A program made the translations under genes and the position numbers. The notes under the pieces were generated by a model, which saw nothing but the letters and a program-made list of their open reading frames with translations, had not been told where the DNA came from and made no database searches. This document shows, one piece after another, positions 34,320 through 60,757 of a stretch of DNA of 64,000 nucleotides. Origin of the DNA: Glaciihabitans sp. INWT7 (GTDB lineage Bacteria > Actinomycetota > Actinomycetes > Actinomycetales > Microbacteriaceae); contig NZ_CP043653.1 in the NCBI RefSeq assembly GCF_014217685.1, positions 1,430,419-1,494,418 on the forward strand, read 5' to 3'. Position 1 is the stretch's first letter; each line of letters opens with the position of its first letter.

Positions 34320-34340
34320 CTAGGGATTTTGGACCCCTAG
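34320..34340. promoter_or_regulatory. DevR/DosR-like dyad upstream of the aldehyde dehydrogenase gene
   Basis: CTAGGG-ATTTTGGAC-CCCTAG has perfect 6-bp arms. Its core GGGATTTTGGACCC (34323-34336) resembles the DosR box core GGGACTTTNGNCCC with one main mismatch. It lies 67-87 nt before the ATG at 34253, a typical activator distance. Confidence 0.55.
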
Positions 34341-35420: not shown

Positions 35421-35434
35421 GGGACCTAGGTCCC
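35421..35434. promoter_or_regulatory. perfect DevR/DosR-like palindrome between adh and pntAA
   Basis: GGGACCTAGGTCCC is a perfect 14-bp palindrome flanked by TC and TCGA, the best match in the window to the DosR box core. It lies 49-62 nt before the adh ATG (minus strand) and 113-126 nt before the pntAA ATG (plus strand), so it could serve both divergent operons. Confidence 0.65.
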
Positions 35435-36824: not shown

Positions 36825-37144
36825 TCGACACCCTGTTCGGCAACCTTGCCATCTTCATCCTGAGCCTCCTGGTGGGGGTAGAGGTGATCAGCAAGATCCC
36901 GTCCACCCTGCACACCCCGATGATGTCGGCCGCCAACGCCATCCACGGCGTGGTCATCGCGGGCGCGATCGTGATCGCGTCCGTGGCGAACAGCCCGGCC
37001 GCCTACGTGCTGACGTTCATCGCCGCGGTGCTCGCGGCCGCGAACGTGTTCGGCGGCTATGTCGTGACCGATCGGATGCTGCAGATGTTCACCCGCCCGC
37101 ATCCCGCCCCCGCTCCCGCCACCGACGCGAAGGTCGCATCATGA
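36821..37144 (+). CDS. pntAB: NAD(P) transhydrogenase subunit alpha part 2 (membrane)
   Basis: A protein of 107 residues with three or four membrane helices (LFGNLAIFILSLLVGVEVIS, GVVIAGAIVIASV, LTFIAAVLAAANVFGGYVVT) and the conserved PSTLHTPMMSAANAIHG motif. It supplies part of the proton channel. It overlaps pntAA and pntB by 4 nt each, so the three are translationally coupled. The Pro/Ala-rich C-terminus is an unremarkable extension. Confidence 0.93.
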   Translation: MIDTLFGNLAIFILSLLVGVEVISKIPSTLHTPMMSAANAIHGVVIAGAIVIASVANSPAAYVLTFIAAVLAAANVFGGYVVTDRMLQMFTRPHPAPAPATDAKVAS

Positions 37145-38562
37145 GCATGTTCGAATTCCTCGTCGGAATCTTCTACCTCGGCGCGGCGACACTCTTCGTC
37201 GTCGGGCTGCACAAGATGCGCGCTCCCTCCACGGCCCGGCAGGGCAACCTGATCTCGGCCGGGGGCATGGCCATCGCCGTGCTGACCACCATCGTGTTCG
37301 CCCTCGTCGACTTCGGCGGCAACTGGATCGGCTGGGGTGCGCTCGTGGTCGGTGCCGCGGTCGGCGCCAGCTACGGGGTCATCCGGGCGCGAACGGTGAA
37401 GATGACCGCCATCCCGCAACTGGTGAGCGTCTTCAACGCCGTCGGCGGAGGGGCCGCAGCGGCCGTGGCATTCGCGGACTTCGTCGCCAACCTCAGCCGG
37501 GCATCCCTCGACCTCACGATCTCGATTCCGGTCGTGCTCGATGTGCTCATCGGCTCGATCACCTTCTCCGGCTCGCTCATCGCGGCGGGCAAGCTCCAGG
37601 GCATCATCTCCGGCAAGCCGCTCACCTTCCCGGGTGCACGAGTGCTCAACGTGATAGTCGCCCTGATCGCGGTCGGCTCGGGAGTGCTGCTGCTCATCGT
37701 GCCGCCGAACCTTCTCATCCTGCTGGTGATCATGATCGCCTCCCTCGTCTTCGGCGTGCTGATGGTGCTCCCGATCGGCGGAGCGGATGCCCCGGTCATC
37801 GTCTCCCTCCTGAACGCGTTCACCGGGCTGGCCGTCGCCATGGCCGGTTTCGCCATCGACAACCAGGCGCTCATCATCGCCGGTGCCCTCGTCGGCGCAG
37901 CCGGCACCATCCTCACCCTGCAGATGGCGAAGGCGATGAACCGATCGGTCGGGGCGATCATCCTCGGTGGATTCGGCACTGGCGACACGGCGACCGCCGG
38001 CGGATCCGAAGCGGTCGATCTCACGAACGTGCGAGAGCTCACCGCCGATGATGTGGCCATCCAGCTCGCCTACGCCCAACACGTGATCATCGCGCCCGGG
38101 TATGGGCTCGCTGCCGCGCAGGCGCAGCATGAGGTCGCAGAGCTCGCCAAGTTGCTCACCGATCACGGGATCGACGTCAAGTACGCGATCCACCCCGTCG
38201 CCGGGCGCATGCCGGGTCACATGAACGTTCTGCTCGCCGAGGCGAATGTGCCCTATGAGCAGATGCTGCAGCTCGACGAGGCAAACGCCGCCTTCGATAA
38301 CTGCGACGTCGCTCTCGTCGTGGGTGCCAACGACGTCTGCAACCCCGACGCGAGAAAGCCGGGCAACGCCGTGTCCGGCATGCCGATCCTCGATGTCGAC
38401 CACGCGAAGTCGGTGGTGGTACTCAAGCGATCGATGCGTCCGGGCTATGCGGGCATCACCAATCCGCTGTTCACCGATCCGAAGACCGGCATGTTCTTCG
38501 CCGACGCGAAGAAAGGCCTCGCCGACATCACGACGGCGGTCAAGGAGTACGTCACCGCCTGA
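37141..38562 (+). CDS. pntB: NAD(P) transhydrogenase subunit beta
   Basis: A protein of 473 residues. About eight membrane helices occupy residues 1-260 and a soluble NADP-binding domain the rest. The latter shows VIIAPGYGLAAAQAQHEVAE, YAIHPVAGRMPGHMNVLLAE, VALVVGANDVCNPDARK and VVVLKRSMRPGYAGITNPLF, the dIII signature with inverted nucleotide binding. With PntAA/AB it makes NADPH from NADH using the proton gradient, or the reverse under reducing conditions. It is followed after 49 bp by the butanediol dehydrogenase gene. Confidence 0.95.
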   Translation: MSMFEFLVGIFYLGAATLFVVGLHKMRAPSTARQGNLISAGGMAIAVLTTIVFALVDFGGNWIGWGALVVGAAVGASYGVIRARTVKMTAIPQLVSVFNAVGGGAAAAVAFADFVANLSRASLDLTISIPVVLDVLIGSITFSGSLIAAGKLQGIISGKPLTFPGARVLNVIVALIAVGSGVLLLIVPPNLLILLVIMIASLVFGVLMVLPIGGADAPVIVSLLNAFTGLAVAMAGFAIDNQALIIAGALVGAAGTILTLQMAKAMNRSVGAIILGGFGTGDTATAGGSEAVDLTNVRELTADDVAIQLAYAQHVIIAPGYGLAAAQAQHEVAELAKLLTDHGIDVKYAIHPVAGRMPGHMNVLLAEANVPYEQMLQLDEANAAFDNCDVALVVGANDVCNPDARKPGNAVSGMPILDVDHAKSVVVLKRSMRPGYAGITNPLFTDPKTGMFFADAKKGLADITTAVKEYVTA

Positions 38563-42395: not shown

Positions 42396-42397
42396 CG

Positions 42398-43165: not shown

Positions 43166-43179
43166 CCGGCGCGTGCGGG

Positions 43180-45228: not shown

Positions 45229-45251
45229 GGTGGTCGCTGACGATGCTCGGG

Positions 45252-47679: not shown

Positions 47680-48321
47680 TCACTCCTCTGGCGCGGGATG
47701 GGATCCCAGGTGCAGGATCGCCGCCTGGGTGCGTCGCTGCAGGCCGAGCTTCGCCAGAAGGCCGGAAACGTAATTCTTGACGGTCTTCTCCGCGAGCGAG
47801 AGCTCGAGGCCGATCTGACGATTCGTGAGTCCCCCGGCGATCAGCGAGAGGATCTGCGTCTCCCGGGCGGTGAGCGACCCGAGGCGCGGATCGGTGTCGG
47901 TGCGGGTGTGGATGCGCTCGATCACTTTGCGAGTGAGCATCGGATCGAGCAGGGAGCGTCCGGCCGCGACCTTGCGCAGCGAGTCGACGAGGCCGCTGCC
48001 GCGGACGTCCTTGAGCACGTAGCCGGATGCCCCAGCGATGACGGCCGCGGACAGCGCCTCATCGTCGTCGTAAGCGGTGAGGATGAGGCATTTGACCTGC
48101 GGATTCTGCGAGCGCACATCGCGACAGACGTCGATGCCGCTGCCGTCGGGCAGGCGAACATCGAGCAGCGCGACGTCGGGCAGTGTCGCGGCGATACGGG
48201 ATCGGGCCTGCGCCGCTGTGCCAGCCTCGCCGACCACCTCGATGTCGTGCTCCGCCCCGAGCAGCTCGGCGATGCCTCGCCGCACGATCTCGTGGTCGTC
48301 CACCAAAAATACCCTGATCAT
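47680..48321 (-). CDS. DevR/DosR-like NarL-family response regulator
   Basis: A protein of 213 residues. The receiver has acid pocket Asp8-Asp9, phospho-acceptor Asp54 (ALLDVRLPDG), Thr82 and Lys104 (YVLKDVRG), the same numbering as mycobacterial DosR. The LuxR-type DNA-binding domain reads LTARETQILSLIAGGLTNRQ then LAEKTVKNYVSGLLAKLGLQ and RRTQAA, a recognition helix almost identical to that of DosR. It should bind GGGAC-type dyads, four of which I find in this window. The start overlaps the sensor kinase stop by 4 nt (ATGA), so the two are coupled. Confidence 0.9.
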   Translation of the reverse strand: MIRVFLVDDHEIVRRGIAELLGAEHDIEVVGEAGTAAQARSRIAATLPDVALLDVRLPDGSGIDVCRDVRSQNPQVKCLILTAYDDDEALSAAVIAGASGYVLKDVRGSGLVDSLRKVAAGRSLLDPMLTRKVIERIHTRTDTDPRLGSLTARETQILSLIAGGLTNRQIGLELSLAEKTVKNYVSGLLAKLGLQRRTQAAILHLGSHPAPEE

Positions 48322-50036
48322 GCCGCATCCGTTCCGTCGTCTGAGGTCTCGATCGGCACGCTCCAGTCGATCGAGGTGCCGTCCGGCCCGGTGTTCACGA
48401 CGAAGGATCCGCCTCGCGCGATCGCCCGCTCTTCGAGGTTGGCCAGGCCACTGCGCCGCGAGGTGTCGAGGATACCTCCCCCGTTGTCGGAGATCACCAG
48501 TCGGACGGTTCCCTCCACGATGTCGAGGGTCACCCCGGTCTGGCCGGCGTTGGCGTGCTTGGCCGCGTTGGTCAGGGCCTCGCGGGCCACCGCGACCACG
48601 TCGTCCGCGAGTGCACCGGTGACCACGAGGTCCACCGGACCGGTGAACGAGACCGTCGGGCTCTTCTTCAGGCCGGAGGCGAGGTCGTTGGCCAGATCGA
48701 GGATGCGATGGCGCACAGAGTCACGCCTGTCCTGGCGCGGGGACAGCGCGAAGATCACCGTGCGGATCTGGGTGACGGCGGCGTCGAGGTTGGTGACCGA
48801 CTGCAGGATGCGCTCCCGTTCGATGGGCGATTCGATCGATCCGGCGACGCTCTGCAACTCGAGCCCGGTGCCGAACAGCTGCTGGATCACATGGTCGTGG
48901 AGGTCGCGGGCGATGCGTCCGCGATCCTCGAGCAGCAGCATCCGCTCTTCGGATGCCCGGGCGCGCGCCAGCTGAACCGCGAGGCTCGCCTGACCGGCGA
49001 AGTCCGCTGCCATCTCGAGGTCGGCGGGGGTGAAGCGCAATCCCCCGGCCACACGGGCGACCAGGAGCACGCCCTCGGCTCGTCCGGCGGAGATCAAGGG
49101 AACCGCCATCATCGGGCCGAGCGCATTATCGATGGCGAAGACCTGGGCATCCGCACCACCATCGCCCACCAGTCGGGGCTGCTTGCCCTCGAGCACGCTC
49201 GCCGCGAGGGAGCCTGCGGCGGGAAAGCTGCGCCCGGTGAGCTCGGTCTCCCCCTGCCCGCGAGCGATCTCGACGACGAGGGTTCCCTCGGTCGAACCCG
49301 GCAGGATCATGCAGACGAGATCGCTCTCCGCGAGCACCAGCACCCGGCTCACGATCGTGGACAGGGAATCGGACTGATTGATGGAGAGCATCGCCGCGGT
49401 GATCTCGGCGGAGGCCGCCGACCACGCCTGCCGGCGGCGGGTCTCTGCGAAGAGCCGGGCGTTGTCGATGGCGAAACCGGCGGAAGCGGCGAGGGACTCG
49501 ACGAGCTGCTCGTCTTCGCGACTGAACGCACCGGAGGACTGGTTGCTGAGGTACAGGTTGCCGTAGACCTCATCGCGCACCCGGATCGGTACCCCGAGGA
49601 AGCTCTCCATGGCCGGGTGGCCAGCGGGGAATCCGCTGGACCGGGAGTCTTCGTGCAGATGCTCGAGCCGGATCGGTCGGGGATCATCGATGAGCGCGCC
49701 GAGCAGGCCGTGTCCTTCGGGAAGGTGCCCGATGATCCGGGCCTGCTCGGGAGGGATGCCCACGTGGATGAACTGCTCGAGCCCGCCGCCCGGAGCGATC
49801 ACCCCGAGGGCGCCGTACTCGGAACCAACAAGTTCGACCGCAGCCTCGATGATCCGCTCGAGCACCACCGGCAATTCGAGGTGTTCCACTACGGCGAGGT
49901 TCGCCCGGAGCAGCGCACGGAGGCGCCCCTGGGTCGCGAGCACGTCCTGCGCGCGATCCACCAGGTCGCTGAGGGCTCGATCGAGTTCGGCCCGCGGCTC
50001 GTCGGGAAAGGTGAGCCGCTCATCGTGCGATGCCAC
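48318..50036 (-). CDS. DevS/DosS-like GAF-domain histidine kinase
   Basis: From GTG 50036 (GGAGGAG upstream) the protein has 572 residues: GAF-A (about 50-200), GAF-B (about 215-365), DHp with phospho-acceptor His380 (RIARDLHDHVIQQLF) and a HATPase_c domain (REALTNAAKHANAGQTG, ISDNGGGILDTSRRSGLANL). In GAF-A, His140 in GFPAGHPAMESFLGVP aligns by motif with the haem-ligand region of mycobacterial DosS, so it may sense oxygen, NO or redox state through haem. There are no membrane helices. A frame running further upstream to 50537 lacks family similarity. It is co-transcribed with the regulator gene and divergent from usp-cydABCD. Confidence 0.9.
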   Translation of the reverse strand: MASHDERLTFPDEPRAELDRALSDLVDRAQDVLATQGRLRALLRANLAVVEHLELPVVLERIIEAAVELVGSEYGALGVIAPGGGLEQFIHVGIPPEQARIIGHLPEGHGLLGALIDDPRPIRLEHLHEDSRSSGFPAGHPAMESFLGVPIRVRDEVYGNLYLSNQSSGAFSREDEQLVESLAASAGFAIDNARLFAETRRRQAWSAASAEITAAMLSINQSDSLSTIVSRVLVLAESDLVCMILPGSTEGTLVVEIARGQGETELTGRSFPAAGSLAASVLEGKQPRLVGDGGADAQVFAIDNALGPMMAVPLISAGRAEGVLLVARVAGGLRFTPADLEMAADFAGQASLAVQLARARASEERMLLLEDRGRIARDLHDHVIQQLFGTGLELQSVAGSIESPIERERILQSVTNLDAAVTQIRTVIFALSPRQDRRDSVRHRILDLANDLASGLKKSPTVSFTGPVDLVVTGALADDVVAVAREALTNAAKHANAGQTGVTLDIVEGTVRLVISDNGGGILDTSRRSGLANLEERAIARGGSFVVNTGPDGTSIDWSVPIETSDDGTDAA

Positions 50037-50146
50037 GTGACTCCTCCGCCGGCGGTGTTCCGGCTGCCCGATGGGGAAGCCGAGATTCCTCGCGTGCCGA
50101 CACATCGAGCGTAGTGCGTCGTGGACCGAGCCGATCTGAGGGCGAC

Positions 50147-50160
50147 GGGACTTTAGGCCC
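50147..50160. promoter_or_regulatory. DevR/DosR-like box between devS-like and usp-cyd operons
   Basis: GGGACTTTAGGCCC matches the DosR box core GGGACTTTNGNCCC. It lies 58-71 nt before the usp start on the plus strand and 111-124 nt before the kinase start on the minus strand, so it can serve usp-cydABCD activation and possibly autoregulation of the two-component genes. Confidence 0.75.
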
Positions 50161-50217
50161 GGTCGAAGCCTGAGCATCCGTACAGGCTGGGAGCAATAGA
50201 AGAAGCGGGGCGGTGTG

Positions 50218-51114
50218 ATGAACGGATTGATCCTTGTCGGCGCGGACGGGACCTCGGCGGGTCGTGCGGCGATCAGCTGGGCGGTGCGGCGTGCGGCATC
50301 CGTCGGATCCCGGGTGATGCTCGTCCACGTCGTCGATGACGAATGGGGCATGATCGGCGAGCAGTCGATCTCCGAACTCCATCCCTCGGCCTTCGAACTC
50401 GTGGAGAAGGATGCGGTCTTCGCCCGCTCCATCAATTCTTCCGTCACCGTCACGACACGGGTGCTGCTCGGCGACCCGATGGTCGAACTCGGAGTCGCCT
50501 CTCGGGAGGTCGACCTCGTGGTGATCGGCACCCACAAGACAGGGTTCCTGCACGGCCGGGCCTTCGGATCACGCAGCCTTCAGCTCGCCGCGACGGCCTG
50601 GTGCCCGGTTGCGGTGATTCCCGAGGGCTCGTCGATCGAACGCCACGGAATCGTCGCGGGCCTCGACGATTCGGATGCGGGTCGAGCCGCCGTGCGCTTT
50701 GCGGCGATCGAAGCTCACCGGGCACACGAGGAACTCGTGCTGCTGCGCGCGTGGAGCGCGGGAAGCGGCACATCCGGCACGGATGCCGACCGCACCGACA
50801 CCCGCGTTCGGGACGCCGTGGAGACCCTTTGCTCCGAATCCGTCGCCCTCGCCCGCAGCGCCGGAGACGATTTGCTCGTGCGCACCCGCACGCTGCGGCG
50901 ACCCCCGGCGGAGGCCCTCGTCGATGCCGGGATATCGGCCGAGCTGCTGGTGATCGGCAGCTCCCGGCGCCACGGGTCGCAGATGTCCGCCCTCGGCCCG
51001 GTGAGCCACGACGTGCTGCTCAACATCGCCGGCCCCACCCTCGTAGTCCACGGCGACACCGTCGCCGACGCCACAGTCACAGCCCTCGACCAACCGATCC
51101 GGAGAAATCAGTGA
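50218..51114 (+). CDS. tandem universal stress protein
   Basis: A protein of 298 residues made of two USP domains (about 1-145 and 150-298). The first begins LILVGADGTSAGRAAISWAV and has the nucleotide motif VIGTHKTGFLHGRAFGSRS. The second begins IVAGLDDSDAGRAAVRFAAI and has VIGSSRRHGSQMSALG with PTLVVHG. Such tandem USPs bind ATP and are hallmarks of the mycobacterial DosR regulon. ATG 50218 is preferred over GTG 50215. A DevR-type box lies 58 bp upstream. The stop overlaps cydA (GTGA), so the stress protein is made with cytochrome bd. Confidence 0.9.
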   Translation: MNGLILVGADGTSAGRAAISWAVRRAASVGSRVMLVHVVDDEWGMIGEQSISELHPSAFELVEKDAVFARSINSSVTVTTRVLLGDPMVELGVASREVDLVVIGTHKTGFLHGRAFGSRSLQLAATAWCPVAVIPEGSSIERHGIVAGLDDSDAGRAAVRFAAIEAHRAHEELVLLRAWSAGSGTSGTDADRTDTRVRDAVETLCSESVALARSAGDDLLVRTRTLRRPPAEALVDAGISAELLVIGSSRRHGSQMSALGPVSHDVLLNIAGPTLVVHGDTVADATVTALDQPIRRNQ

Positions 51115-52520
51115 ACGACATCCTCAGTCCCCTCGTACTGTCGCAGTGGCAGTTCGGGCTCACCACCATCTATCACTTCCTCTTCATCCCGATCACCATC
51201 GGTATGGCAACCACCACGGCGGTCTTCCAGACGGCGTGGTACCGCACGGCGAAGGTCAAGTACCTCCATCTCACGCAGTTCTTCGGCAAGATCTTCCTGA
51301 TCAACTTCGCCATGGGGGTGGTGACCGGCATCGTGCAGGAGTTCCAGTTCGGCATGAACTGGTCCACGTACTCGCGATTCGTCGGAGACGTGTTCGGCGC
51401 TCCGCTCGCCATGGAGGGGCTCCTCGCCTTCTTCCTCGAGGCCACCTTCATCGGACTGTGGATCTTCGGCTGGGACAAGCTGCCGAAGGGCATCCACCTC
51501 GCCACGATCTGGCTCACCGCGGCTGGCACGATCCTCTCGGCCTACTTCATCCTCGCGGCGAACGCCTTCATGCAGCATCCGGTGGGCTTCCGCATCAACG
51601 AGGCTCGCGGCCGGGCTGAACTGACGGACATCTGGGCGGTACTCACCAACAAGGTGTCGCTCGCCTCGTTCCCCCACACGATCGCCGCCTCGTTCATGGT
51701 CTCGTCAGCGCTCGTGATCTGCATCGCCGCCTGGCACCTCGCCCGCAAGCAGAATCTCGACACGATGCGACCGGCCATGGTCTTCGCCCTCTGGACCATG
51801 ATCGGCGCCGGCATCCTCACCGTGCTCACCGGCGACCAGCTCGGGCTCGTGATGGTGCAGACGCAACCCATGAAGATGGCTGCCGCCGAAGCCGCCTACA
51901 ACACCGTGAGCGGAGCGGATGCCTCGTTTTCGATCTTCACCCTCGGCACGCCGGACGGGGTGAGCGAGCTGTTCTCGATCCGCATCCCCTACCTCTTGTC
52001 GTTCCTGTCGACGCACACCCTCACCGGCACCGTCGAAGGCATCAACGACCTGCAGGCGCAGTACCGCACGCTCTACGGCCCCGGCAACTATGCCCCGGTC
52101 ATCTGGGTCACCTACTGGGCGTTCCGTTGGATGATCGGACTCGGCATGCTCTCGGTGCTGTTCTCCGCGGTCGGGCTCTGGCTCATGCGTAAGGGACGCC
52201 TGCCGCAGAACAAGTGGGTGTGGCGCATCGCCGTCTGGGCGTTCCCCCTCCCGCTCGCGGCCATGATCGTCGGTTGGATCTTCACCGAGATGGGCCGCCA
52301 ACCCTGGATCGTCTTCAGCCTGCTGAAGACCAAGGACGGCGTCTCGCCCAACCTCACCGGTCTCGACGTGCTGATCTCGATCATCTCGTTCACCCTCATT
52401 TACGGCATCCTCGCGGTGGTCGAATTCCGACTGCTCAAGCGCGCCGCCCAGAAGGGACCGGAGGGAGCGCCGGTCACCGACGCCTCCGAGGCCCCGACCG
52501 CCACCGTGACTGTGTACTAG
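51111..52520 (+). CDS. cydA: cytochrome bd oxidase subunit I
   Basis: From GTG 51111 (GGAGA 6 nt upstream) the protein has 469 residues with about nine membrane helices. Haem ligands are likely His22 in LTTIYHFLFIPITIG, His in SLASFPHTIAASF and Met in the GLVMVQTQPMKM region. The conserved GRQPWIVFSLLKT follows. The length and short connection between helices 6 and 7 indicate the short Q-loop type found in Gram-positives. It oxidises quinol and reduces oxygen at high affinity. It is followed 8 bp later by cydB. A longer frame in usp is spurious. Confidence 0.96.
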   Translation: MNDILSPLVLSQWQFGLTTIYHFLFIPITIGMATTTAVFQTAWYRTAKVKYLHLTQFFGKIFLINFAMGVVTGIVQEFQFGMNWSTYSRFVGDVFGAPLAMEGLLAFFLEATFIGLWIFGWDKLPKGIHLATIWLTAAGTILSAYFILAANAFMQHPVGFRINEARGRAELTDIWAVLTNKVSLASFPHTIAASFMVSSALVICIAAWHLARKQNLDTMRPAMVFALWTMIGAGILTVLTGDQLGLVMVQTQPMKMAAAEAAYNTVSGADASFSIFTLGTPDGVSELFSIRIPYLLSFLSTHTLTGTVEGINDLQAQYRTLYGPGNYAPVIWVTYWAFRWMIGLGMLSVLFSAVGLWLMRKGRLPQNKWVWRIAVWAFPLPLAAMIVGWIFTEMGRQPWIVFSLLKTKDGVSPNLTGLDVLISIISFTLIYGILAVVEFRLLKRAAQKGPEGAPVTDASEAPTATVTVY

Positions 52521-52528
52521 GAGCAATG

Positions 52529-53569
52529 ATGGATCTCAATATTCTGTGGTTCTGGATCGTCGGATTCTTCTTCATCGGCTACTTCGTGCTCGAGGGCTTC
52601 GACTTCGGGGTGGGGATGGCACTGCCGTTCCTCGGCCGGGACGAGATCGATCGCCGTGTGATGATCAACACGATCGGTCCGGTCTGGGACATGAACGAGA
52701 CCTGGCTGATCGTGGCCGGCGCCTCCCTCTTCGCGGCATTTCCGGAGTGGTACGCCACCCTGTTCAGCGGGTTCTATCTCGCGCTCCTGCTCATCCTGCT
52801 CGCGCTGATCGTGCGCGGTGTCTCCTTCGAATACCGCCACCACCGGCCAGAGTCGCGCTGGAAGAAGTGGTTCGACGGAATGATCGTGGTCGGATCAGCC
52901 GTGCCGGCCCTGCTGTGGGGTGTCGCCTTCGCGAACATCGTGCAGGGCGTCGCGCTCGATTCCGGGCACAACTACACGGGCACCCTGTTCGACCTGCTGA
53001 ACCCGTATGCGCTGCTCGGCGGTCTCACCACGCTCCTGCTCTTCTTCACCCACGGCGTGGTGTTCGTGTCGCTGAAGACCGACGGCGACCTGCGGCTGCG
53101 TGCCCAGAGGCTCGCGGTGCGGTCCGGGGCGATCACTGTCGTCGTCGCCGCGGTGTTCCTGCTCTGGACCAACCTCGCCCACGGGCAGGTCGCCTCCTGG
53201 CTGCTAGCGTTGCTCGCCGCTGTGCTGTTGATCGGCTCGTTCTTCGCCAATCTGCGTGGCCGCGAACGGTACGCTTTCGGACTCATGGCCGGCACCATCG
53301 CCATCGCGGTCGCGAGTCTCTTCGCTGCTCTCTTCCCGAACGTGATGCCCGCGAGCAACGATGTGGCCAACAGCCTCACCATCGCTAATGCCTCGAGCAC
53401 GCCGTACACGCTCTCGGTGATGAGCTGGGTCGCCATCGCGGTGTTGCCCTTCGTGCTGGCCTACCAGGCCTACACGTATTGGGTCTTCCGCAAGCGCATC
53501 ACCCGTGACTCCATCCCGGTCGAGGCAGAGCCTCTGGACTCGACCTCGGCATCCGTGCTCGGCGGCTGA
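52529..53569 (+). CDS. cydB: cytochrome bd oxidase subunit II
   Basis: A protein of 346 residues with eight or nine membrane helices. The start MDLNILWFWIVGFFFIGYFV, then LEGFDFGVGMALPFLGRDE and TIGPVWDMNETWLIVAGASL, is the CydB signature. AGGAGC lies 5 nt before ATG 52529, and ATG 52526 is too close. It forms the heterodimer with CydA. The C-terminal TYWVFRKRITRDSIPVEAEP is cytosolic. Four bases separate it from cydD, so cydABDC form one unit. Confidence 0.95.
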   Translation: MDLNILWFWIVGFFFIGYFVLEGFDFGVGMALPFLGRDEIDRRVMINTIGPVWDMNETWLIVAGASLFAAFPEWYATLFSGFYLALLLILLALIVRGVSFEYRHHRPESRWKKWFDGMIVVGSAVPALLWGVAFANIVQGVALDSGHNYTGTLFDLLNPYALLGGLTTLLLFFTHGVVFVSLKTDGDLRLRAQRLAVRSGAITVVVAAVFLLWTNLAHGQVASWLLALLAAVLLIGSFFANLRGRERYAFGLMAGTIAIAVASLFAALFPNVMPASNDVANSLTIANASSTPYTLSVMSWVAIAVLPFVLAYQAYTYWVFRKRITRDSIPVEAEPLDSTSASVLGG

Positions 53570-53573
53570 ACCG

Positions 53574-55208
53574 ATGCGTCCGCTCGATCCCCGGCTGCTG
53601 CGCTATGCGGCTGCGGCCCGCACCTTTCTCGGTGTCGGAGTCGCACTGGGGATCGTGCGCACCGCGGCGACCCTGGCGTTCTGCTGGCTGCTGGCGCAGG
53701 CGATCGTCGGGGCGATCGCGGGGCGGTCTCTCGGGGAGTTGCTGCCCGGCATCCTCTCTCTCGCAGTCGTCGGCGTCCTTCGGGCCGGCACGATGTGGGC
53801 GATGGATGCGGCGGCGGCTCGCGGTGCCGCCACGGTGAAGAGCCAGTTGCGTCGTCGCCTCGTGGCGGGGATCACCCGGCTCGGTCCCGGCTGGCTCGGC
53901 ACCCGCAACCGGGTCGATGTCGTGACCACCGCAGGACCGGCCCTCGATGCCCTTGACGGCTATTTCTCGCTCTTCCTCCCGCAGATCGTGCTCACCGCGA
54001 TCGCGACACCGCTCGTGATCGTGGCGATCTTCCTGCAGGACGTGCTGAGCGGCATCCTCGTGGTCGTCGCTCTGCCGCTGATCCCGGTTTTCATGGTCCT
54101 GATCGGCCTCGCCACCCAGGCGGTGCAACGCCGCCAGTGGCTCGTGCTCGCTCGGCTGTCGAGCCGGTTCCTCGATGTGGTCGGAGGGCTCGCCACCCTC
54201 AAGATCTTCGGGCGCCAACATCGGCAGGCCGCCCGGATCGCCACCCTGACCGAGGACTATCGGGTCGAGACGATGAAGGTGCTGCGGCTGTCATTCCTCA
54301 GCGGATTCGCGCTCGAGCTGATCGGCAGCCTCTCCGTCGCCCTCGTCGCGGTGTCGGTGGGGTTGCGGCTCGTCGACGGCAGTCTTGCCCTGTCGGTCGG
54401 TCTCTTCGTGTTGCTGCTGGCGCCGGAGGCCTTCCTCCCCCTGCGCCAGGTCGGCGCGAACTATCACGCCGCAGCGGACGGGGTCGCCGCCGCGGAGGAC
54501 GTCTTCGACATCCTCGATGCCGCGGCGGCGATGACCGCCGAGGCTCCCGCCATCCACAGCGGTACTGTTTCGCTCGTGAGACGCGACCTGCGTTTCGCGG
54601 AAGTGAGCGTGCGCTATGAGGGCCGGACCGCCATCGATCGGTTCTCCGCAGTGATCCGCCCCGGCCGGATGACGGTGCTCGCCGGGCCGAGCGGCTCTGG
54701 CAAGTCCACCTTGCTTGCGGCCCTCCTGGGCTTCGTGCCCTTCGACGGCGAGATCGAGATCGGTGATGCGACTCTCGCAACCGATCGGCGGTCGCTCACC
54801 GCCTGGGCCGGCCAGGGTGCGCCTCTCCTCGAGGGGACGATCAGCAGCAATGTGTCCCTCGGAGATTCGGCGCCGGATCTGCGGCTCGTGCGCCGCGCCC
54901 TGACGCTCGCCGCCCTTTCCGAGCTCGATCCCGGCACGGTGGTGACCGTCACCGGCGGCGGACTCTCCGGTGGGCAGGGCGAACGGGTCGTCGCCGCGCG
55001 GGCGATGTATCGGGCGCTGGCCCGCCACTGCCCCGTTGTGGCATTCGACGAGCCCAGCGCCGCCCTCGATCCGCGGGCCGAAGCCGCGCTGCTCGAGGGC
55101 CTTCGGCAGCTTGCCGATGAGGGGTACACCGTTCTCGTGGTGAGTCATCGCCCCGCTGTGATCGCCGCGGCGGATGATCTGATCGAACTGGGGGTCGTGC
55201 ATGTCTGA
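53574..55208 (+). CDS. cydD: ABC exporter CydD for cytochrome bd assembly
   Basis: From ATG 53574 the protein has 544 residues: a six-helix exporter domain (ATLAFCWLLAQAIVGAIAGR onward) and a nucleotide-binding domain with Walker A GPSGSGKST, a modified signature GGGLSGGQGERVVAARAMYR and Walker B CPVVAFDEPSAALDPRAEA. CydDC exports low-molecular-weight thiols and haem-related compounds needed for cytochrome bd maturation; in this mycothiol-using organism cysteine is the likely cargo. It overlaps cydC by 8 nt. Confidence 0.93.
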   Translation: MRPLDPRLLRYAAAARTFLGVGVALGIVRTAATLAFCWLLAQAIVGAIAGRSLGELLPGILSLAVVGVLRAGTMWAMDAAAARGAATVKSQLRRRLVAGITRLGPGWLGTRNRVDVVTTAGPALDALDGYFSLFLPQIVLTAIATPLVIVAIFLQDVLSGILVVVALPLIPVFMVLIGLATQAVQRRQWLVLARLSSRFLDVVGGLATLKIFGRQHRQAARIATLTEDYRVETMKVLRLSFLSGFALELIGSLSVALVAVSVGLRLVDGSLALSVGLFVLLLAPEAFLPLRQVGANYHAAADGVAAAEDVFDILDAAAAMTAEAPAIHSGTVSLVRRDLRFAEVSVRYEGRTAIDRFSAVIRPGRMTVLAGPSGSGKSTLLAALLGFVPFDGEIEIGDATLATDRRSLTAWAGQGAPLLEGTISSNVSLGDSAPDLRLVRRALTLAALSELDPGTVVTVTGGGLSGGQGERVVAARAMYRALARHCPVVAFDEPSAALDPRAEAALLEGLRQLADEGYTVLVVSHRPAVIAAADDLIELGVVHV

Positions 55209-56910
55209 GCTGCGCGCCCGCGCCGATTCTCCGACGGCGGCCGTTCTCCGTCTCGCGCAGCCCCCGCTTCGCCGCTTCGCCCCGGGCGTCTTCTTCGGCC
55301 TCGTCTCGGCGCTCAGCTCGGTGGGGCTGCTCGCGACCTCGGCCTGGCTGATCACGAGGGCCGCCGAACAGCCCCCCATCCTCTTCCTCGGCGCAGCGAT
55401 CGTCGGCGTTCGTGCTTTCGCACTGTCGCGCGCAGCCTTCCGCTACGTGGAGCGCCTCACCAGCCACGATGCGGCGTTCCGGCAGCTCTCCGCCCTGAGG
55501 ATCGGCATCTACCGGCGGCTGGTGCCGCTCGCCCCTGACGGGCTGAGGGGTGATGCGGGAGGTCCCGGTCGGGGCGACCTTGTCACCCGGCTGGTGAGTG
55601 ACGTCGACGAGTTGCAGAATCTGCCCCTGCGAGTCGTGCAGCCCCTCGTGGTTACCTTACTGACCGCGGTGCTGAGCGTGATCGGCGTGAGCATCGTGCT
55701 CCCGACCGCCGGCGTCACCCTCGCCGTCACCCTCGTGCTCGCCTTCGCCACGGCGGCACTCGTCCAATCGGCTATCGCCGGTCGGGCGGAACGCTCGATC
55801 GCGCCGCTTCGTGGTGAGCTCTCCGACCGGCTTCTCGACTACGTCTCGAACCTCGACGTGCTGGTCGCCTACGACGCGGTGTCGGAGCGGATCACGCGGG
55901 TCGAGGCCGCCGACACCGGCCTGCGCATCGCGACCCTCGCGCGGGCCGGAGGCGCCGGTGCGACATCCGCCATTCTCTCCGCGCTGGCGACATTGGCCTC
56001 CGTCGCGGCGCTGCTCGTGGGCATTCCGGCGCTCGGACACGGACTCCAAGGTCCCGCTCTCACGGTGATCGCCCTGGTACCGCTCGCCGTCTTCGAGGTG
56101 GTCGCGAGCGCGCCGCTGGCTCTCGGTGCCTTCCGGCAGGTGCGCGCGAGTGCCGCGAGAGTGGCGGATGCGACGCCCAGCGCCCTCCCCGTCGAGATCC
56201 CCGACGAGTTGACCGGGCCGGGCGCCGACCGCCTGCCGTCGTCGTCGACGATGGAACTCTTCGGACTCGGCGCCCGCTGGCCGGGCGAGGCAACGGCGGC
56301 GTTCGATGGCGTGGACCTCCGGGTGGATCGCGGGGATCGCATCGTGATCGAGGGCGCGTCGGGCTCCGGCAAGACGATGCTTGCGCACGTGCTCGTTCGA
56401 TTCCTCGGCTACAGCGGCAGCTACCGCATCGGTGGGGTCGAAGCGCGGGAGCTCTCCGCCGATGTCGTTCGCGGCATCGTGGGACTCTGCGAACAATCGC
56501 CATACCTCTTCGACGAGGACATCCGGCAGAACCTCCTCTTCGCTCACGACACGGCGACCGACGACGAACTCCTCGCCGTGATCGCCCGGGTGGGCGTTGC
56601 CGAGTGGACGCGAGAGCGCGGCGGCCTCTCTGCCCGGGTCGGCGACGATGGAGTGCTGGTATCGGGAGGCCAGGCCCAGCGCCTCGCTCTCGCCCGCGCG
56701 CTGCTCGCGGACTTCCCGGTGATCGTGTTCGACGAGCCGACCGCCAACGTGGATCCCGGGCGCGCGTCCGAGCTGATGCGCGACATCCTCTCCGCCGCCT
56801 CCGACCCGCACGGGGAGGACTCACGCGCGGTCATCCTGATCTCCCACACACCGGTGCCCGATGACCTCGTCACGCGGCGGGTGCGGCTCGGCGCACCGGC
56901 GCTGCCGTGA
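55201..56910 (+). CDS. cydC: ABC exporter CydC for cytochrome bd assembly
   Basis: A protein of 569 residues with six membrane helices (VFFGLVSALSSVGLLATSAW, LITRAAEQPPILFLGAAIVG typical of CydC) and an ATPase domain: Walker A IEGASGSGKTMLAHV, signature VSGGQAQRLALARALLA and Walker B FPVIVFDEPTANVDPG. It forms the heterodimer with CydD. It ends the usp-cydABDC transcript. About 65 bp past its stop begins an array of repeated dyads, which may end or modulate this transcript. Confidence 0.93.
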   Translation: MSELRARADSPTAAVLRLAQPPLRRFAPGVFFGLVSALSSVGLLATSAWLITRAAEQPPILFLGAAIVGVRAFALSRAAFRYVERLTSHDAAFRQLSALRIGIYRRLVPLAPDGLRGDAGGPGRGDLVTRLVSDVDELQNLPLRVVQPLVVTLLTAVLSVIGVSIVLPTAGVTLAVTLVLAFATAALVQSAIAGRAERSIAPLRGELSDRLLDYVSNLDVLVAYDAVSERITRVEAADTGLRIATLARAGGAGATSAILSALATLASVAALLVGIPALGHGLQGPALTVIALVPLAVFEVVASAPLALGAFRQVRASAARVADATPSALPVEIPDELTGPGADRLPSSSTMELFGLGARWPGEATAAFDGVDLRVDRGDRIVIEGASGSGKTMLAHVLVRFLGYSGSYRIGGVEARELSADVVRGIVGLCEQSPYLFDEDIRQNLLFAHDTATDDELLAVIARVGVAEWTRERGGLSARVGDDGVLVSGGQAQRLALARALLADFPVIVFDEPTANVDPGRASELMRDILSAASDPHGEDSRAVILISHTPVPDDLVTRRVRLGAPALP

Positions 56911-56975
56911 GTGACACGCGCCGTCGTATTCGGGCGCAGGGGTCAGTTCTTTTCACGGAGTGACGCCGGCAGTTA

Positions 56976-57600
56976 GTGACGGTTGAGCCGGGGAGGTCGC
57001 TCGGCGTAGTTCGTGGTGCGCACGCCGGGAGCGCCTGGGCCGCCCAGCCGTCATTAAGTGCTCCCTCGTGAGGCGGAGCCTGCACATAGTGACGGTTCGG
57101 CGGCCCGGGTAGCGCGACGGGGGGCCTCGCGACGGGAGCGCCCGGGCCGACCGTTGGGAGCCCTCGCCGTGCGACTCGAGCGCGCGGGCCGCCCAGCCGT
57201 CACCAAGAGCTCCCCCGGGGCGCAAAGATGGCCGTTTGTGACGGCTGGGCGGCCGAAGACCCCGACGGGAGCCCCAACCGCTCGACGGGAGGGTCTGGGC
57301 CGCCCATCCGGAACCACCACCTCGTGACTAGAGCGCCTCGGCCGCTCATCCGTCACGAAGTGCTCCTCAACGGCGCAAAGACAGCGGTTTGTGACGGCTG
57401 AGCGGCCCGGGGACCCCGACGTGAGCCCCAACCACGCGACACCCCGCCGCCCGACGGGAACGCGTGGGCCGTCCAGCCGTCACCAATTGCTCCCCGGGAG
57501 CGCAAAGACAGCGGTTTGTGACGGCTGAGTGGACCGAGGATCCCGACGGGATCCCCGGGAGCGACCCAAGCACCAGACGGGAACACCTGAGGGGACCCCG
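56976..57600. repeat. array of five diverged dyad-repeat units
   Basis: The 716-bp gap between convergent cydC and the P-type ATPase gene is filled by repeated DNA. GTGACGG-led half-sites (best GTGACGGCTGAGCGGCCC) occur at 56976, 57089, 57238, 57391 and 57518, at intervals of 113, 149, 153 and 127 bp. Three carry a shared leader CGCAAAGA...GTTTGTGACGG (57221, 57374, 57501). Between them lie the complementary half-sites, such as GGGCCGCCCAGCCGTCAC, so each unit can fold into a large imperfect hairpin. Open frames here are artefacts of the repeat. No CRISPR-like spacing or nearby cas gene exists. Confidence 0.8.
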
Positions 57601-57626
57601 CCGGCACCCCTGCCGCGAGAAACCCC

Positions 57627-60107
57627 CTACCGAGCAGCCCCGCGATCGAAGCCCGACCACGGCGCCCTCTTTACCAGTTCGAGGCTGCCGAGGTAGACCG
57701 CCGCGAGGGCGAAGAGCAGCGCGACCATCCCGAACGGCGGGGCGGTGAAGCCGATCGCGGCCGCCAACGGGAGGAACGGGATGACGAGGGTGAGCAGCGC
57801 GATCGCGAGCACCGCCGCGCCGAAGAGGGTATCCGGCCGGCTGCGGAAGAAGGCCCGCCGGGTTCGCAGGGTGACGAGCACGATCATCTGGGTGAGCGCG
57901 GACTCGATGAACCAACCGCTCTGGAACAGCGACTCGGAGGCGTGGAAGACCGTGATCAGCAGCGCGAATGTGGCCAGGTCGAACAGGGTACTGAGCGCGC
58001 CGAAGACGATCATGAAGCGGCGCACGGATCGAAGGTTCCAGCTCCCCGGTCGCTCGAGCCGCTCCGGATCCACCCGGTCGCGGGAGAGCAACATGCTCGG
58101 CAGATCGGCGAGGAAGTTGAGCAACAGGATCTGCCCCGGCAGCATCGGCAGGAAGGGAAGCACGGCGGATGCGATCACCATGCTGAGCACGTTGCCGAAG
58201 TTCGAGCTCGAGGCGAAGCGCACGTATTTGAGCGTGTTCGCGAAGGTGCGACGCCCGAGTCGCACTCCGTCGGCGACGACGGCGAGGCTCTTCTCGGTGA
58301 GCACGATCGCGGCGGCCTCACGCGCGACATCGGTGGCTTCGTCGACGGAGATGCCGACATCCGCGGCGTGAAGCGCCGAGCTGTCGTTGATGCCGTCCCC
58401 GAGGAATCCGACCGTGCGCCGGCCGGCCTTCAGCGCCGCGACGATCTCCTCCTTGTGCCGGGGTTCGACTTCCGCGAAGACGTCGCACTCGGTGACAGCC
58501 CTTCGCAGGCGAGCGGGACTCATGCGGTCGATCTCCGCCCCGGTGACGACGAGCTCGGAGCGCAGCCCGATCCGAGACGCCACCGACCGGGAGACGAAAC
58601 GGTTGTCGCCGCTCACCATGACCACCCGTACCCCGAGCCCCGAGAGATCCGCTATCTCGAGGTTCACGTCGTCTTTCACGTCGTCGCGGAACGTGAGGAT
58701 GCCCGCGAAGTCGAGCGCAGCCTCCGAGGCGACGCCGATCCGCTCCCCCGCGTCGAGTGGGCGTGTCGCGATGCCGATTGCACGGAATCCGTCGGCCCCC
58801 AGGGCGCGATAGCGGTCGCGGACGAGCTCGAAGGCGGTGGGCGAGCGGTCACCCCGAATGCTGGTGCAGGCCGCCAACACCGACTCGAGCGAGCCCTTCG
58901 TCACCAGAGTGGGCGTCCCGTCGATCTGCACGCCGATCGAGAGCCGCTTGCGCGCGAAATCGTAGGGCACCTCGCCGAGCGACTCCCCCGGCGCGGGCTG
59001 GTGCACCCGCAGGATGGCGTCATCGAGGGGGTTGCGGTAGCCCTTCTGCAGCAGGGAGTTGAGTGCCCCGAGTTCGAGGAGCCGGGCATCCGCCGTGCCA
59101 TCCGGGGCGAGAGCCTGCGAGAACTCCACGGTCCCGCCCGTGAGGGTGCCCGTCTTGTCGGTGCAGAGAACGGTGAGCGAGCCGAGATCCTCGATCACGT
59201 CGAGCCGTTTGACGATGACGTGGTGTCTGGAGAGGGCGCGTGCCCCGGCCGAGAGGCTGACCGACACTATGGCGGGCAGCATCTGGGGCGTCACCCCCAC
59301 GGCGAGGGCGAGTGAGAACAGCAGCGCATCCAGGATCGGTCGGCCGAGCACCAGATTGATCACGAAGACGGCGATCGTGAGCGCGATGGTCACCTGGAGC
59401 AGCAGGATGCCGAACCGGCTGAGGCCGTGCTCGAACGCCGTGGGGGCCGGGTGCTTCATCAGTCGGGCGGCGACCGCCCCGAATTCGGTGTCGCGACCGG
59501 TGTAGACCACGAGGGCGACACCCGTGCCGCTCACCACGTGAGTGCCGCGGAACAGGCAGTTGGTGCGGGCGGCGAGGGGCGTGTCCGCGGTGAGCGGTGT
59601 GTCGGCGGACTTGTCCACCGGAACGGACTCACCGGTGAGCGCGGATTCATCCACGACGAGGCTCTGCGCGGAGACGAGCCGGCAGTCGCCGGGCACGATG
59701 TCGCCGGCCGAGAGCTGAAGTTCGTCCCCCGTCCGCACGTCCGCGAGCACCAGGGTGAGCATCTCACCGCCGCGGTCGACATCCACCGTGGTTGAGACGC
59801 TGGCGAGGAGCATCCGCACGTCCCGAGAGGCGCGGAATTCTTGGGCGAAGCCGAGCCCGGCGCTCGCGAGCACGATGACGCCGATGATGATGCCGTCCGT
59901 GGCATCCCCCACCGCAGTGGCGACCGCGGCCGCCATCACGAGGATGAGCGTGACCGGGGAGAGGAATTGCCTCAGCGCGAGTGCCGGCCAGGACAGGCTT
60001 CGCGGCGGAGGAGGCTCTGTGCGGGGAGCGGCCGCGATGGCTCGCACGCGGTCGATCGGTGCGCTCCACAGCTCGGCGTGAGCTGACACCCCGGCCGCTC
60101 CGGTCAT
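57627..60107 (-). CDS. magnesium-translocating P-type ATPase, MgtA-like
   Basis: From ATG 60107 (GGAG upstream; TTG 60137 is an alternative) the protein has 826 residues. P-type motifs are VVDESALTGESVPVDK, phosphorylation site VLCTDKTGTLTGG, nucleotide site VTKGSLESVLAAC and hinge GFLGDGINDSSALHAADVG. Helix 4 with SLALAVGVTPQMLPAIVSVS is typical of P3B magnesium importers. The N-terminal domain is short. It is encoded 16 bp after a universal stress protein and shares its promoter, with a DevR-like box. Mycobacterium tuberculosis has a comparable USP-P-type ATPase pair (Rv1996-ctpF) in the DosR regulon. The transported ion is inferred. Confidence 0.88.
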   Translation of the reverse strand: MTGAAGVSAHAELWSAPIDRVRAIAAAPRTEPPPPRSLSWPALALRQFLSPVTLILVMAAAVATAVGDATDGIIIGVIVLASAGLGFAQEFRASRDVRMLLASVSTTVDVDRGGEMLTLVLADVRTGDELQLSAGDIVPGDCRLVSAQSLVVDESALTGESVPVDKSADTPLTADTPLAARTNCLFRGTHVVSGTGVALVVYTGRDTEFGAVAARLMKHPAPTAFEHGLSRFGILLLQVTIALTIAVFVINLVLGRPILDALLFSLALAVGVTPQMLPAIVSVSLSAGARALSRHHVIVKRLDVIEDLGSLTVLCTDKTGTLTGGTVEFSQALAPDGTADARLLELGALNSLLQKGYRNPLDDAILRVHQPAPGESLGEVPYDFARKRLSIGVQIDGTPTLVTKGSLESVLAACTSIRGDRSPTAFELVRDRYRALGADGFRAIGIATRPLDAGERIGVASEAALDFAGILTFRDDVKDDVNLEIADLSGLGVRVVMVSGDNRFVSRSVASRIGLRSELVVTGAEIDRMSPARLRRAVTECDVFAEVEPRHKEEIVAALKAGRRTVGFLGDGINDSSALHAADVGISVDEATDVAREAAAIVLTEKSLAVVADGVRLGRRTFANTLKYVRFASSSNFGNVLSMVIASAVLPFLPMLPGQILLLNFLADLPSMLLSRDRVDPERLERPGSWNLRSVRRFMIVFGALSTLFDLATFALLITVFHASESLFQSGWFIESALTQMIVLVTLRTRRAFFRSRPDTLFGAAVLAIALLTLVIPFLPLAAAIGFTAPPFGMVALLFALAAVYLGSLELVKRAPWSGFDRGAAR

Positions 60108-60123
60108 CCCACTCCGCGTGCGC

Positions 60124-60657
60124 TCAGTGGACGACAAGGACGGCGCAGTGCGCCTTCTCCGCGCAGGCCGAACTCACCGAACCGAGGAGAAGTCCCACCA
60201 CTCCCCCATGCCCGCGGCTGCCGACCACCAGCATGTCAGCGCCCTGACTCGCGTCGATGAGGCGCTGAGCCGGGCTTCCTTCCGCGGAGCTTGTGGTCAC
60301 CCACTCGGGCAGGGCGTCTCCGAATTGGCTGCGGCACGCCTCCCCCAAGATCTCGGTGGCGTCTTTCTCTGGCGACCAGTCGGTCACCCCGATGTCGTTG
60401 TATTCGGTGAAGAACCTCCAGGTGGTCACGACCTGGAGTCCCGTGTTCAACGCCTCCGCGAGGTCTGCGGCCTTTGCCAGGGCGCGGATGGATGCTTCGG
60501 AGCCGTCGACCCCCACGACGATGCGTCCCGTGCGTGCGGCCAGGTGCACGGCCGAGGCGGAGTGCGCCGCCCGGCTGTCGGACTCGTAGCGCGCCCCATC
60601 CGGGTCGGCCACGAAATGGGAAGGCTGGGTCGGTGCGGTGCCGCTCATCGGTTGCAT
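60124..60657 (-). CDS. universal stress protein, single domain
   Basis: A protein of 177 residues with a ~35-residue N-terminal extension and one USP domain: IVVGVDGSEASIRALAKAAD at the start and the ATP-binding motif MLVVGSRGHGGVVGLLLGSV, then CAEKAHCAVLVVH at the end. GGTGA lies before ATG 60657. It heads a two-gene transcript with the MgtA-like ATPase and has a GGGACCTAAGACCC box 36 bp upstream. By analogy with DosR-regulon USPs it would bind ATP and act in hypoxic or stationary adaptation. Confidence 0.9.
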   Translation of the reverse strand: MQPMSGTAPTQPSHFVADPDGARYESDSRAAHSASAVHLAARTGRIVVGVDGSEASIRALAKAADLAEALNTGLQVVTTWRFFTEYNDIGVTDWSPEKDATEILGEACRSQFGDALPEWVTTSSAEGSPAQRLIDASQGADMLVVGSRGHGGVVGLLLGSVSSACAEKAHCAVLVVH

Positions 60658-60692
60658 GTCACCATTTCACGCCCGCGGGCGACGCGAGCCTA

Positions 60693-60706
60693 GGGACCTA
60701 AGACCC
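60693..60706. promoter_or_regulatory. DevR/DosR-like box upstream of usp-mgtA
   Basis: GGGACCTAAGACCC shares GGGAC, CTA and the terminal CCC with the other boxes of the window. It lies 36-49 nt before the usp ATG on the minus strand, close enough to overlap or abut the -35 region, as expected for a DevR-activated promoter. Confidence 0.65.
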
Positions 60707-60757
60707 GATTCCGCTGAGGCCCGATTCGGCTGAGGCCCGCTCTCGCCGAGAAGCGCT

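Follow-up and report, generated by a model that had tools for sequence, protein, structure and literature searches.

We present a regulon of the DevR/DosR type in Glaciihabitans sp. INWT7 (Microbacteriaceae) that has very probably taken in cytochrome bd. The window, i.e. the whole stretch of 64,000 nucleotides that was analysed, covers positions 1430419-1494418 of contig NZ_CP043653.1 (G000:C1:1430419-1494418) of a 3.48 Mb genome in two contigs. It encodes the response regulator DevR and the sensor kinase DevS, the divergent operon usp-cydABDC with a universal stress protein gene (usp) and the cytochrome bd genes, and four 14-bp sites, which we call DevR boxes. An earlier note on this DNA had proposed a DevR/DosR-like regulon gathered around its own regulator. 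This putative regulon is well supported by homology, by a bias of the boxes towards promoters, by conservation and by the joint occurrence of boxes and kinase. The strongest new point is the DevR box before cyd operons with either of two cydA types, which is almost confined to genomes with the kinase.

The regulator and its kinase

We compared the product of devR with the solved structures in the PDB using phmmer. The best match was DevR itself (3c3w, 8.4e-68), followed by VraR with 2.4e-42. The residues Asp54, Thr82 and Lys104 and the DosR-like recognition helix, all claimed in the earlier note, are present: the helix carries Lys179, Lys182 and Asn183, which, going by DosR, we take to be the DNA-contact residues and which are the same as in DosR. 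Across the regulators of 71 relatives Thr82, Lys104, Lys179, Lys182 and Asn183 are invariant, and Asp54 was found in 68 with gaps in the other 3.

The kinase gene overlaps devR by 4 bp and its likely start is the GTG at 50036. A longer frame of 739 amino acids that starts with TTG is an over-extension, and the GAF-GAF-HisKA_3-HATPase assignment was made on this longer frame. For the first GAF domain the best solved match was the GAF domain of DosT (2vzw, 3.1e-43), followed by GAF domains of DevS (1.8e-37 to 2.2e-36); the solved matches of the ATPase domain were likewise those of DosT and DevS, with DosT closest. The kinase is therefore DevS-like, as had been predicted. His140 and Tyr162 align with the 2vzw GAF domain and are presumably the haem ligand and the distal residue, their roles in DosS and DosT. 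In the kinases of the relatives (n = 74) we observed His140 in 71, Tyr162 in 73 and the phosphorylated histidine in 73, the remainder being gaps. This suggests that DevS may sense oxygen through its haem and pass a phosphate to DevR. No NCBIfam model reached its cut-off among the best 25 of 87 for devR or the 10 for devS. By DevS the nearest named relative is Frigoribacterium sp. CG_9.8 (L159; 86%).

Four putative DevR boxes in the window

The four sites (Table 1) are 14-mers of the form GGGA(N7)CCC. The earlier note had given their positions exactly (34323, 35421, 50147 and 60693) but described them as GGGA(N6)CCC: the spacer has seven nucleotides, and the literal N6 form misses all four sites and has 11 matches in the window against 19.5 expected, i.e. 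below chance. The note had also headed its finding with the coordinates 47680-60706, and only two of the four fall inside these. All four are non-coding in our gene calls and lie upstream of the genes that the note had named, and the site at 35421 is the perfect palindrome it was said to be.

To score the sites we used two matrices, the window matrix built from the four window sites only and the relatives' matrix built from 86 sites scoring at least 13 in 80 devS loci. Run on the window, the relatives' matrix ranked 35421, 60693, 50147 and 34323 first to fourth, although this recovery is not fully independent because the 86 sites were chosen with the window matrix. The fifth-ranked position scores 8.2 and lies inside a gene, and the best position of the reversed-matrix control also scores 8.2. 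The four sites are thus more than chance. In the one at 34323 an arm has no C at position 5; this C is found in all 172 arm readings of the 86 relatives' sites, which were selected with a matrix that favours it. In the region 49950-60900 a scan for sigma-70-type promoters found none, and there were 3 terminator-like matches compared to 3.1 in shuffled sequences.

Promoter bias across the genome

The outer arms alone mean little because GGGACNNNNGNCCC is not enriched genome-wide, with 42 rows (25+17) compared to 49 control rows (25+24). With a strict A/T centre, GGGAYYWWDGDCCC, we counted 12 matches at 11 places compared to 3 in the control, under a centre rule that was picked after the sites had been seen. 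The centre also separates the 41 GGGACNNNNGNCCC places by location: all 11 with a WW centre are non-coding, and 10 of them have a called start no more than 250 bp downstream, while the remaining one sits in 23S rRNA. Among the 30 places with other centres 12 are non-coding and 7 lie upstream (10/11 vs 7/30, Fisher p 1.5e-4). In the reversed control 3 of the 6 WW-centred places are non-coding and 2 lie upstream of starts. The gene starts in these counts come from a simple codon-composition caller, not from curated annotation. The promoter bias on which the earlier note had made its proposal depend is thus seen among the pattern matches of the whole genome. Within 25 kb of devR we count 5 of the 11 strict places; the binomial p of 2.6e-7 is optimistic, given that four of these sites were the reason for choosing the window. 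A relaxed pattern, GGGHCNWWNGDCCC, was rejected; it gave 14 places compared to 8+8 control rows, and 3 of the 4 places that it added lie inside called genes.

One sequence, GGGACTAAAGACCC, inflates the counts of DevR-like boxes. It lies in the bacterial 23S rRNA (e.g. L032 1501-1514) and recurs in many genomes without devS; in 3 of the 4 checked loci that hold it (L032, L067 and L072) it is in 23S rRNA, in the fourth (L015) it is not. Box counts that include it were rejected because it is ribosomal and common where devS is missing. We removed it from the association test in all genomes, which also drops the 1500535 site of our own genome (L015), a site outside rRNA.

Conservation in relatives and co-occurrence with devS

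With the window matrix, and its reversed form as control, we scanned 20 devS loci of relatives (400 kb) and found 31 sites compared to 3 at a score of at least 12, and 50 compared to 21 at 10 or more. In 80 named devS loci (1.53 Mb), a set that shares genomes with the first, there were 36 sites compared to 0 at 16 or more, 106 compared to 14 at 12 or more and 205 compared to 63 at 10 or more. Of the sites scoring at least 12, 85/106 precede a called start by at most 250 bp, compared to 3/14 in the control. Scanning related genomes with a matrix from the four sites, the check that the earlier note had suggested, thus yields sites far above the reversed control at 12 or more and biased towards promoters. 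In many relatives boxes occupy the gap between devS and usp.

DevS was found at E<=1e-80 in 53 of 150 genomes of the family (devS+). Strict boxes, GGGACYWWRGDCCC with GGGACTAAAGACCC removed, occur in 30 of the 53 devS+ but only 12 of the 97 devS- genomes (62 vs 16 places), counts that take no account of shared ancestry. When nothing is removed, pattern rows compare to reversed-control rows as 99 to 67 in devS+ and as 40 to 125 in devS- genomes, so that the pattern exceeds its control only where the kinase is. The boxes track the DosT-like kinase across the family.

DevR boxes before cytochrome bd genes

The usp-cydABDC genes are tightly packed, with 5 bp between cydA and cydB, 4 bp between cydB and cydD and an overlap of cydC with cydD. 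The 50147 box lies 54 bp before the start of usp1 and 110 bp before that of devS, and therefore one box can serve both directions. The order devS, box, usp1, cydA and then cydB, cydD and cydC recurs in three Frigoribacterium loci (L159, L160 and L161) and in a metagenome-assembled genome (MAG) of Lacisediminihabitans (L162); usp1 of L159 was missed by the gene caller and recovered by tblastn (73% identical). L162 has a second box (7728-7741) between usp1 and cydA besides the one in the devS gap, and G139, of the same genus as our strain, carries two sites, one of them in the devS/usp1 gap and the other directly before cydA.

Matches to cydA at 1e-60 occur in 114 of the 150 genomes. We examined 90 of 120 matches, each with 350 bp upstream: 50 of type I, with a full-length match, 38 of type II, with 52-60% identity over about residues 5-219, and 2 intermediates, both devS+ and without box, that stand outside the counts below. 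Left out were 28 lower-ranked type I rows, a second copy in G026 and a 32%-identical copy in G054. The two types are judged to be separate lineages by identity, not by a tree.

Boxes scoring at least 11 precede 3/22 devS+ compared to 1/28 devS- copies of type I, and 10/24 compared to 0/14 copies of type II. For both types together this gives 13/46 compared to 1/42 (p 9e-4); at a threshold of 11.9 the counts are 13 and 0 (p 1e-4), and at exactly 12 they are 9 and 0. The single devS- match, with a score of 11.1, sits where the reading frame begins, and the reversed matrix matched at 11 or more once in 88 promoters. The 13 boxed promoters carry 11 genus labels and their box lies 59-133 bp before the start of the match. 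Among the devS+ type I copies those of G000 (our strain) and G076 were scored as having no box, since theirs stands in front of usp1 and beyond the 350 bp searched. Together with the conserved layout of the gap, the difference between devS+ and devS- promoters makes the predicted control of usp-cydABDC by the box, another claim of the earlier note, well supported.

In a Propionibacteriales MAG (L230) cydA, cydB and a long cydD-like gene lie directly upstream of a devR homologue (60%); with our matrix this locus has no box of 9.5 or more.

Other promoters of the window

A PntAA of the window type (at least 55% identity) was found in 12 of the 150 genomes, 11 of them devS+, and other PntAA types in 38 genomes, of which 8 are devS+. 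We scored 30 of the 50 pntAA matches. Boxes of at least 11 precede 4/12 of the window-type genes (our own genome included; G124 starts at a contig end and offers no upstream sequence) with 0 matches of the reversed matrix, compared to 1/18 for the other genes scored, where the reversed matrix also matched once. In two Glaciihabitans MAGs (L169 and L173, taken as G114 and G039, two of the four boxed genomes) the pnt genes stand beside devSR with boxes. The adh/pntAA site is strong here (21.4) and some pnt promoters elsewhere have boxes; support for the transhydrogenase as a putative member is moderate.

The genes usp2 and mgtA read in the same direction. A box lies just before usp2 in L159, L161 and L162, and control of usp2-mgtA by DevR is reasonably supported; among the loci L159 to L162 mgtA adjoins usp2 only in L160. 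The pair had been likened to Rv1996-ctpF of M. tuberculosis. The likeness goes no further than the combination of a usp with a P-type ATPase: the ATPase in the window scores above the cut-off of TIGR01524, a model of magnesium transporters, whereas CtpF is a calcium-type pump.

The aldehyde dehydrogenase is a doubtful member. Its dyad exists where the note had placed it, but it is clearly the weakest of the four (10.9) and has the arm without C5. Elsewhere 0/11 promoters of this gene have a box of at least 11 (two score 9.5), a comparison that says little because devS- genomes, in which no box would be expected, supply 10 of the 11; the sole devS+ genome among them is G103, with 50% identity.

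Genome G082 (L336 and L362), in which no DevS was found at 1e-80, has an 86%-identical aldehyde dehydrogenase and a 68%-identical pntAA, both without box, possibly through loss of the regulator or unlinked transfer. An IS3-type integrase gene (29103-29966) lies near a stretch of lower G+C at 24-32 kb, on the pnt and aldehyde dehydrogenase side of the island. The block at 41940-46586 adjoins devSR also in Frigoribacterium (L159-L161); its products include an AAA/MoxR-like ATPase, a VWA protein and a protein weakly similar to PI3/PI4 kinases.

Table 1. Genes and DevR boxes of the window (window positions) and predicted boxes elsewhere in the same genome (genome positions); box scores refer to the relatives' matrix
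Feature	Position	Strand	Description
aldehyde dehydrogenase	32862..34253	-	succinate-semialdehyde dehydrogenase-like; best NCBIfam NF006915, 482 bits, below cut-off 730; doubtful member
weak dyad GGGATTTTGGACCC	34323..34336	+	upstream of aldehyde dehydrogenase; score 10.9; doubtful member
adh	34374..35282	-	zinc alcohol dehydrogenase; PF08240, PF00107; called start, true start may be slightly upstream
DevR box GGGACCTAGGTCCC	35421..35434	+	perfect palindrome between adh and pntAA; score 21.4
pntAA-pntAB-pntB	35547..38562	+	transhydrogenase; best NCBIfam are transhydrogenase alpha/beta models, below cut-offs; PNTB_4TM
devR	47680..48321	-	NarL/FixJ-type response regulator, DevR/DosR-like, 213 amino acids; Response_reg + GerE
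devS	48318..50036	-	GAF-GAF-HisKA_3-HATPase sensor kinase, DosT/DevS-like, 572 amino acids
DevR box GGGACTTTAGGCCC	50147..50160	+	divergent gap devS / usp-cydABDC; score 16.6
usp1	50215..51114	+	tandem universal stress protein, 299 amino acids, first gene of cyd operon; PF00582 5.2e-34
cydA	51111..52520	+	PF01654 Cyt_bd_oxida_I 524.7 bits, cut-off 26.2; overlaps usp1 stop by 4 bp
cydB	52526..53569	+	PF02322 362.3 bits; TIGR00203 319.9 bits, cut-off 117.3 (longer open reading frame)
cydD	53574..55208	+	TIGR02857 521.9 bits, cut-off 435 (open reading frame from 53505); ATG 53574
cydC	55201..56910	+	TIGR02868 478.2 bits, cut-off 329.05
mgtA-type P-type ATPase	57627..60137	-	downstream of usp2; TIGR01524 649.9 bits, cut-off 610.75
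usp2	60124..60657	-	PF00582 4.6e-26
DevR box GGGACCTAAGACCC	60693..60706	+	35 bp upstream of usp2 start; score 19.9
predicted box	1330858		before zinc alcohol dehydrogenase
predicted box	1500535		before usp and DUF2269
predicted box	1986414		between P-type ATPase and GAF-bearing Ser/Thr kinase
predicted box	2503277		before SulP permease
predicted box	2752856		between thymidylate synthase and pyridoxamine-phosphate-oxidase-like gene
predicted box	3012629		between two genes without identification
predicted box	3021133		before short open reading frame without identification

The predicted members outside the window are single sites of our own genome. The site at 2331704 was not taken as a member, nor were two GGGATCAAAGACCC sites (L101 9326 and 10110, C2, 149-kb contig), which lie 784 bp apart beside or inside an RHS-repeat gene and are probably a repeat. 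At about 6415 in L105 a box lies between a P-type ATPase gene and that of a Ser/Thr kinase containing a GAF domain.

DISCUSSION

Homology, key residues, box positions, conservation and co-occurrence were computed, and a box lies upstream of the regulator operon and of the usp genes, as a DevR-type regulon requires. From these results we infer oxygen sensing, phosphotransfer, binding and activation as follows. Loss of oxygen, or binding of nitric oxide or carbon monoxide, at the GAF haem would switch the kinase on, which would then phosphorylate Asp54 of DevR. Dimers of DevR would bind the 14-bp palindrome GGGWCNWWNGWCCC upstream of the target promoters and activate them. The single box between devS and usp1 would serve both devSR, by auto-regulation, and the five-gene usp-cydABDC operon, while the other boxes would act on usp2-mgtA and adh/pnt and, elsewhere in the genome, on a usp-DUF2269 pair and at several single sites. 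Through such a response the cell would gain a high-affinity quinol oxidase and, at the same time, a transhydrogenase, redox dehydrogenases and stress proteins.

We also favour, with rather less confidence, the wider view that the DevS haem sensor of the Microbacteriaceae directly switches the respiratory chain, and not dormancy proteins alone. In this view cyd operons with two types of cydA, and a distinct transhydrogenase that is nearly confined to devS+ genomes, would have been placed under DevR boxes repeatedly.

Several observations weigh against a DevR regulon of this extent. The enrichment of GGGACNWWNGNCCC in our genome is only modest (12 rows vs 7 control rows), and at a score of at least 8 the window matrix gives no excess in the 20 loci (77 vs 76). 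Strict boxes still occur in 12 of the 97 devS- genomes, and shared ancestry does not enter into the genome counts. Among the devS+ cyd promoters 33/46 have no box of at least 11, and the presence of a box alone is no proof of activation.

These observations have to be weighed together with three other explanations. DevR might control a core of devSR and usp only, with cyd and pnt mainly under another system such as Crp and the boxes as passengers of a shared gap. The many devS+ cyd promoters without box would fit this, as would M. smegmatis: in the available text of PMC7739888 cydAB is induced by Crp1 and is not among the 49 genes of the DevR regulon, and a devR mutant is reported to induce cydA normally and equally well, on data which that paper does not show. 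We nevertheless consider a core-only regulon unlikely, since separate cyd operons of other genera have a box of their own at 59-133 bp before the match start and since cyd boxes of at least 11.9 are found in devS+ genomes only and in two types of cydA.

Less probable still is that the dyads are real but that some are bound by one or several other NarL/FixJ regulators, with devSR a mere neighbour. Other LuxR-type regulators may use similar dyads, and the devS- genomes with a strict box would agree with this; however, the boxes follow the DosT-like kinase (30/53 vs 12/97 genomes), stand in the devS/usp gap of many relatives and meet a regulator whose presumed DNA-contact residues equal those of DosR. 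They also resemble the consensus of M. tuberculosis DevR/DosR, GGGAC...GTCCC. A further resemblance is to the element of OsdR as given in the main text of PMC5069765.

That a genome rich in G+C produced the four dyads by chance is very improbable and already contradicted: the literal GGGA(N6)CCC is no commoner than chance and GGGACNNNNGNCCC stays below its control (42 vs 49 rows), but the A/T-centred forms exceed theirs (12 matches vs 3 and 12 rows vs 7), and the sites are promoter-biased, conserved and recovered by the relatives' matrix.

M. smegmatis reportedly runs its oxygen-sensing dormancy switch and its high-affinity oxidase through separate regulators. Control of both by a single haem sensor, if it holds here, would mean that the way oxygen sensing is linked to respiration was rewired within the Actinomycetota. 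The family would then offer an independent lineage for asking what a DevR regulon is for, with environmental strains that allow tests, and the co-occurrence of box and kinase would be a practical predictor of regulon members in other genera. A search of one literature library found nothing joining Microbacteriaceae and DosR; a paper on a Rhodococcus genome (PMC2947987) mentions DosR. For DevR with cydA, cydB, binding site and regulon it returned only the Crp paper (PMC7739888), and no case of cyd or pnt under DevR was named in what were mostly titles and abstract openings.

Compared to known systems, the window is closest to DevR/DosR with DevS/DosT of M. tuberculosis. It shares the architecture of regulator and kinase, the His and Tyr of the haem pocket, the DNA-contact residues and the GGGAC...GTCCC palindrome. 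The M. tuberculosis regulon, too, holds usp genes, among them one adjacent to a P-type ATPase gene. Unlike there, boxes also stand before usp-cydABDC and the transhydrogenase, and the ATPase is of the magnesium type. The second system is OsdR/OsdK of Streptomyces coelicolor (Urem et al. 2016, PMC5069765), of which we refer to the main text. OsdR is shown there to bind DevR promoters from M. tuberculosis, and what is shared is confined to the core beside the regulator. As here, the regulon clusters round its regulator, the element is palindromic and the predicted targets include usp, alcohol dehydrogenase and pyridoxamine 5'-phosphate oxidase genes (SCO0200, SCO0199 and SCO0214, the last being the oxidase). 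Unlike here, the element is AGGGCCGATCGGCCCT, and that main text contains neither 'cyd' nor 'transhydrogenase'. Finally, cytochrome bd is induced at low oxygen in M. smegmatis according to the available text of PMC7739888, and we would expect the same here, but there Crp1 is responsible and DevR is reportedly not needed, whereas here the genes have DevR boxes. Because the defining features that can be tested are found in the window, with the aldehyde dehydrogenase as a doubtful member, the system probably works like the DevR/DosR kind, and it is the content of the regulon that is new.

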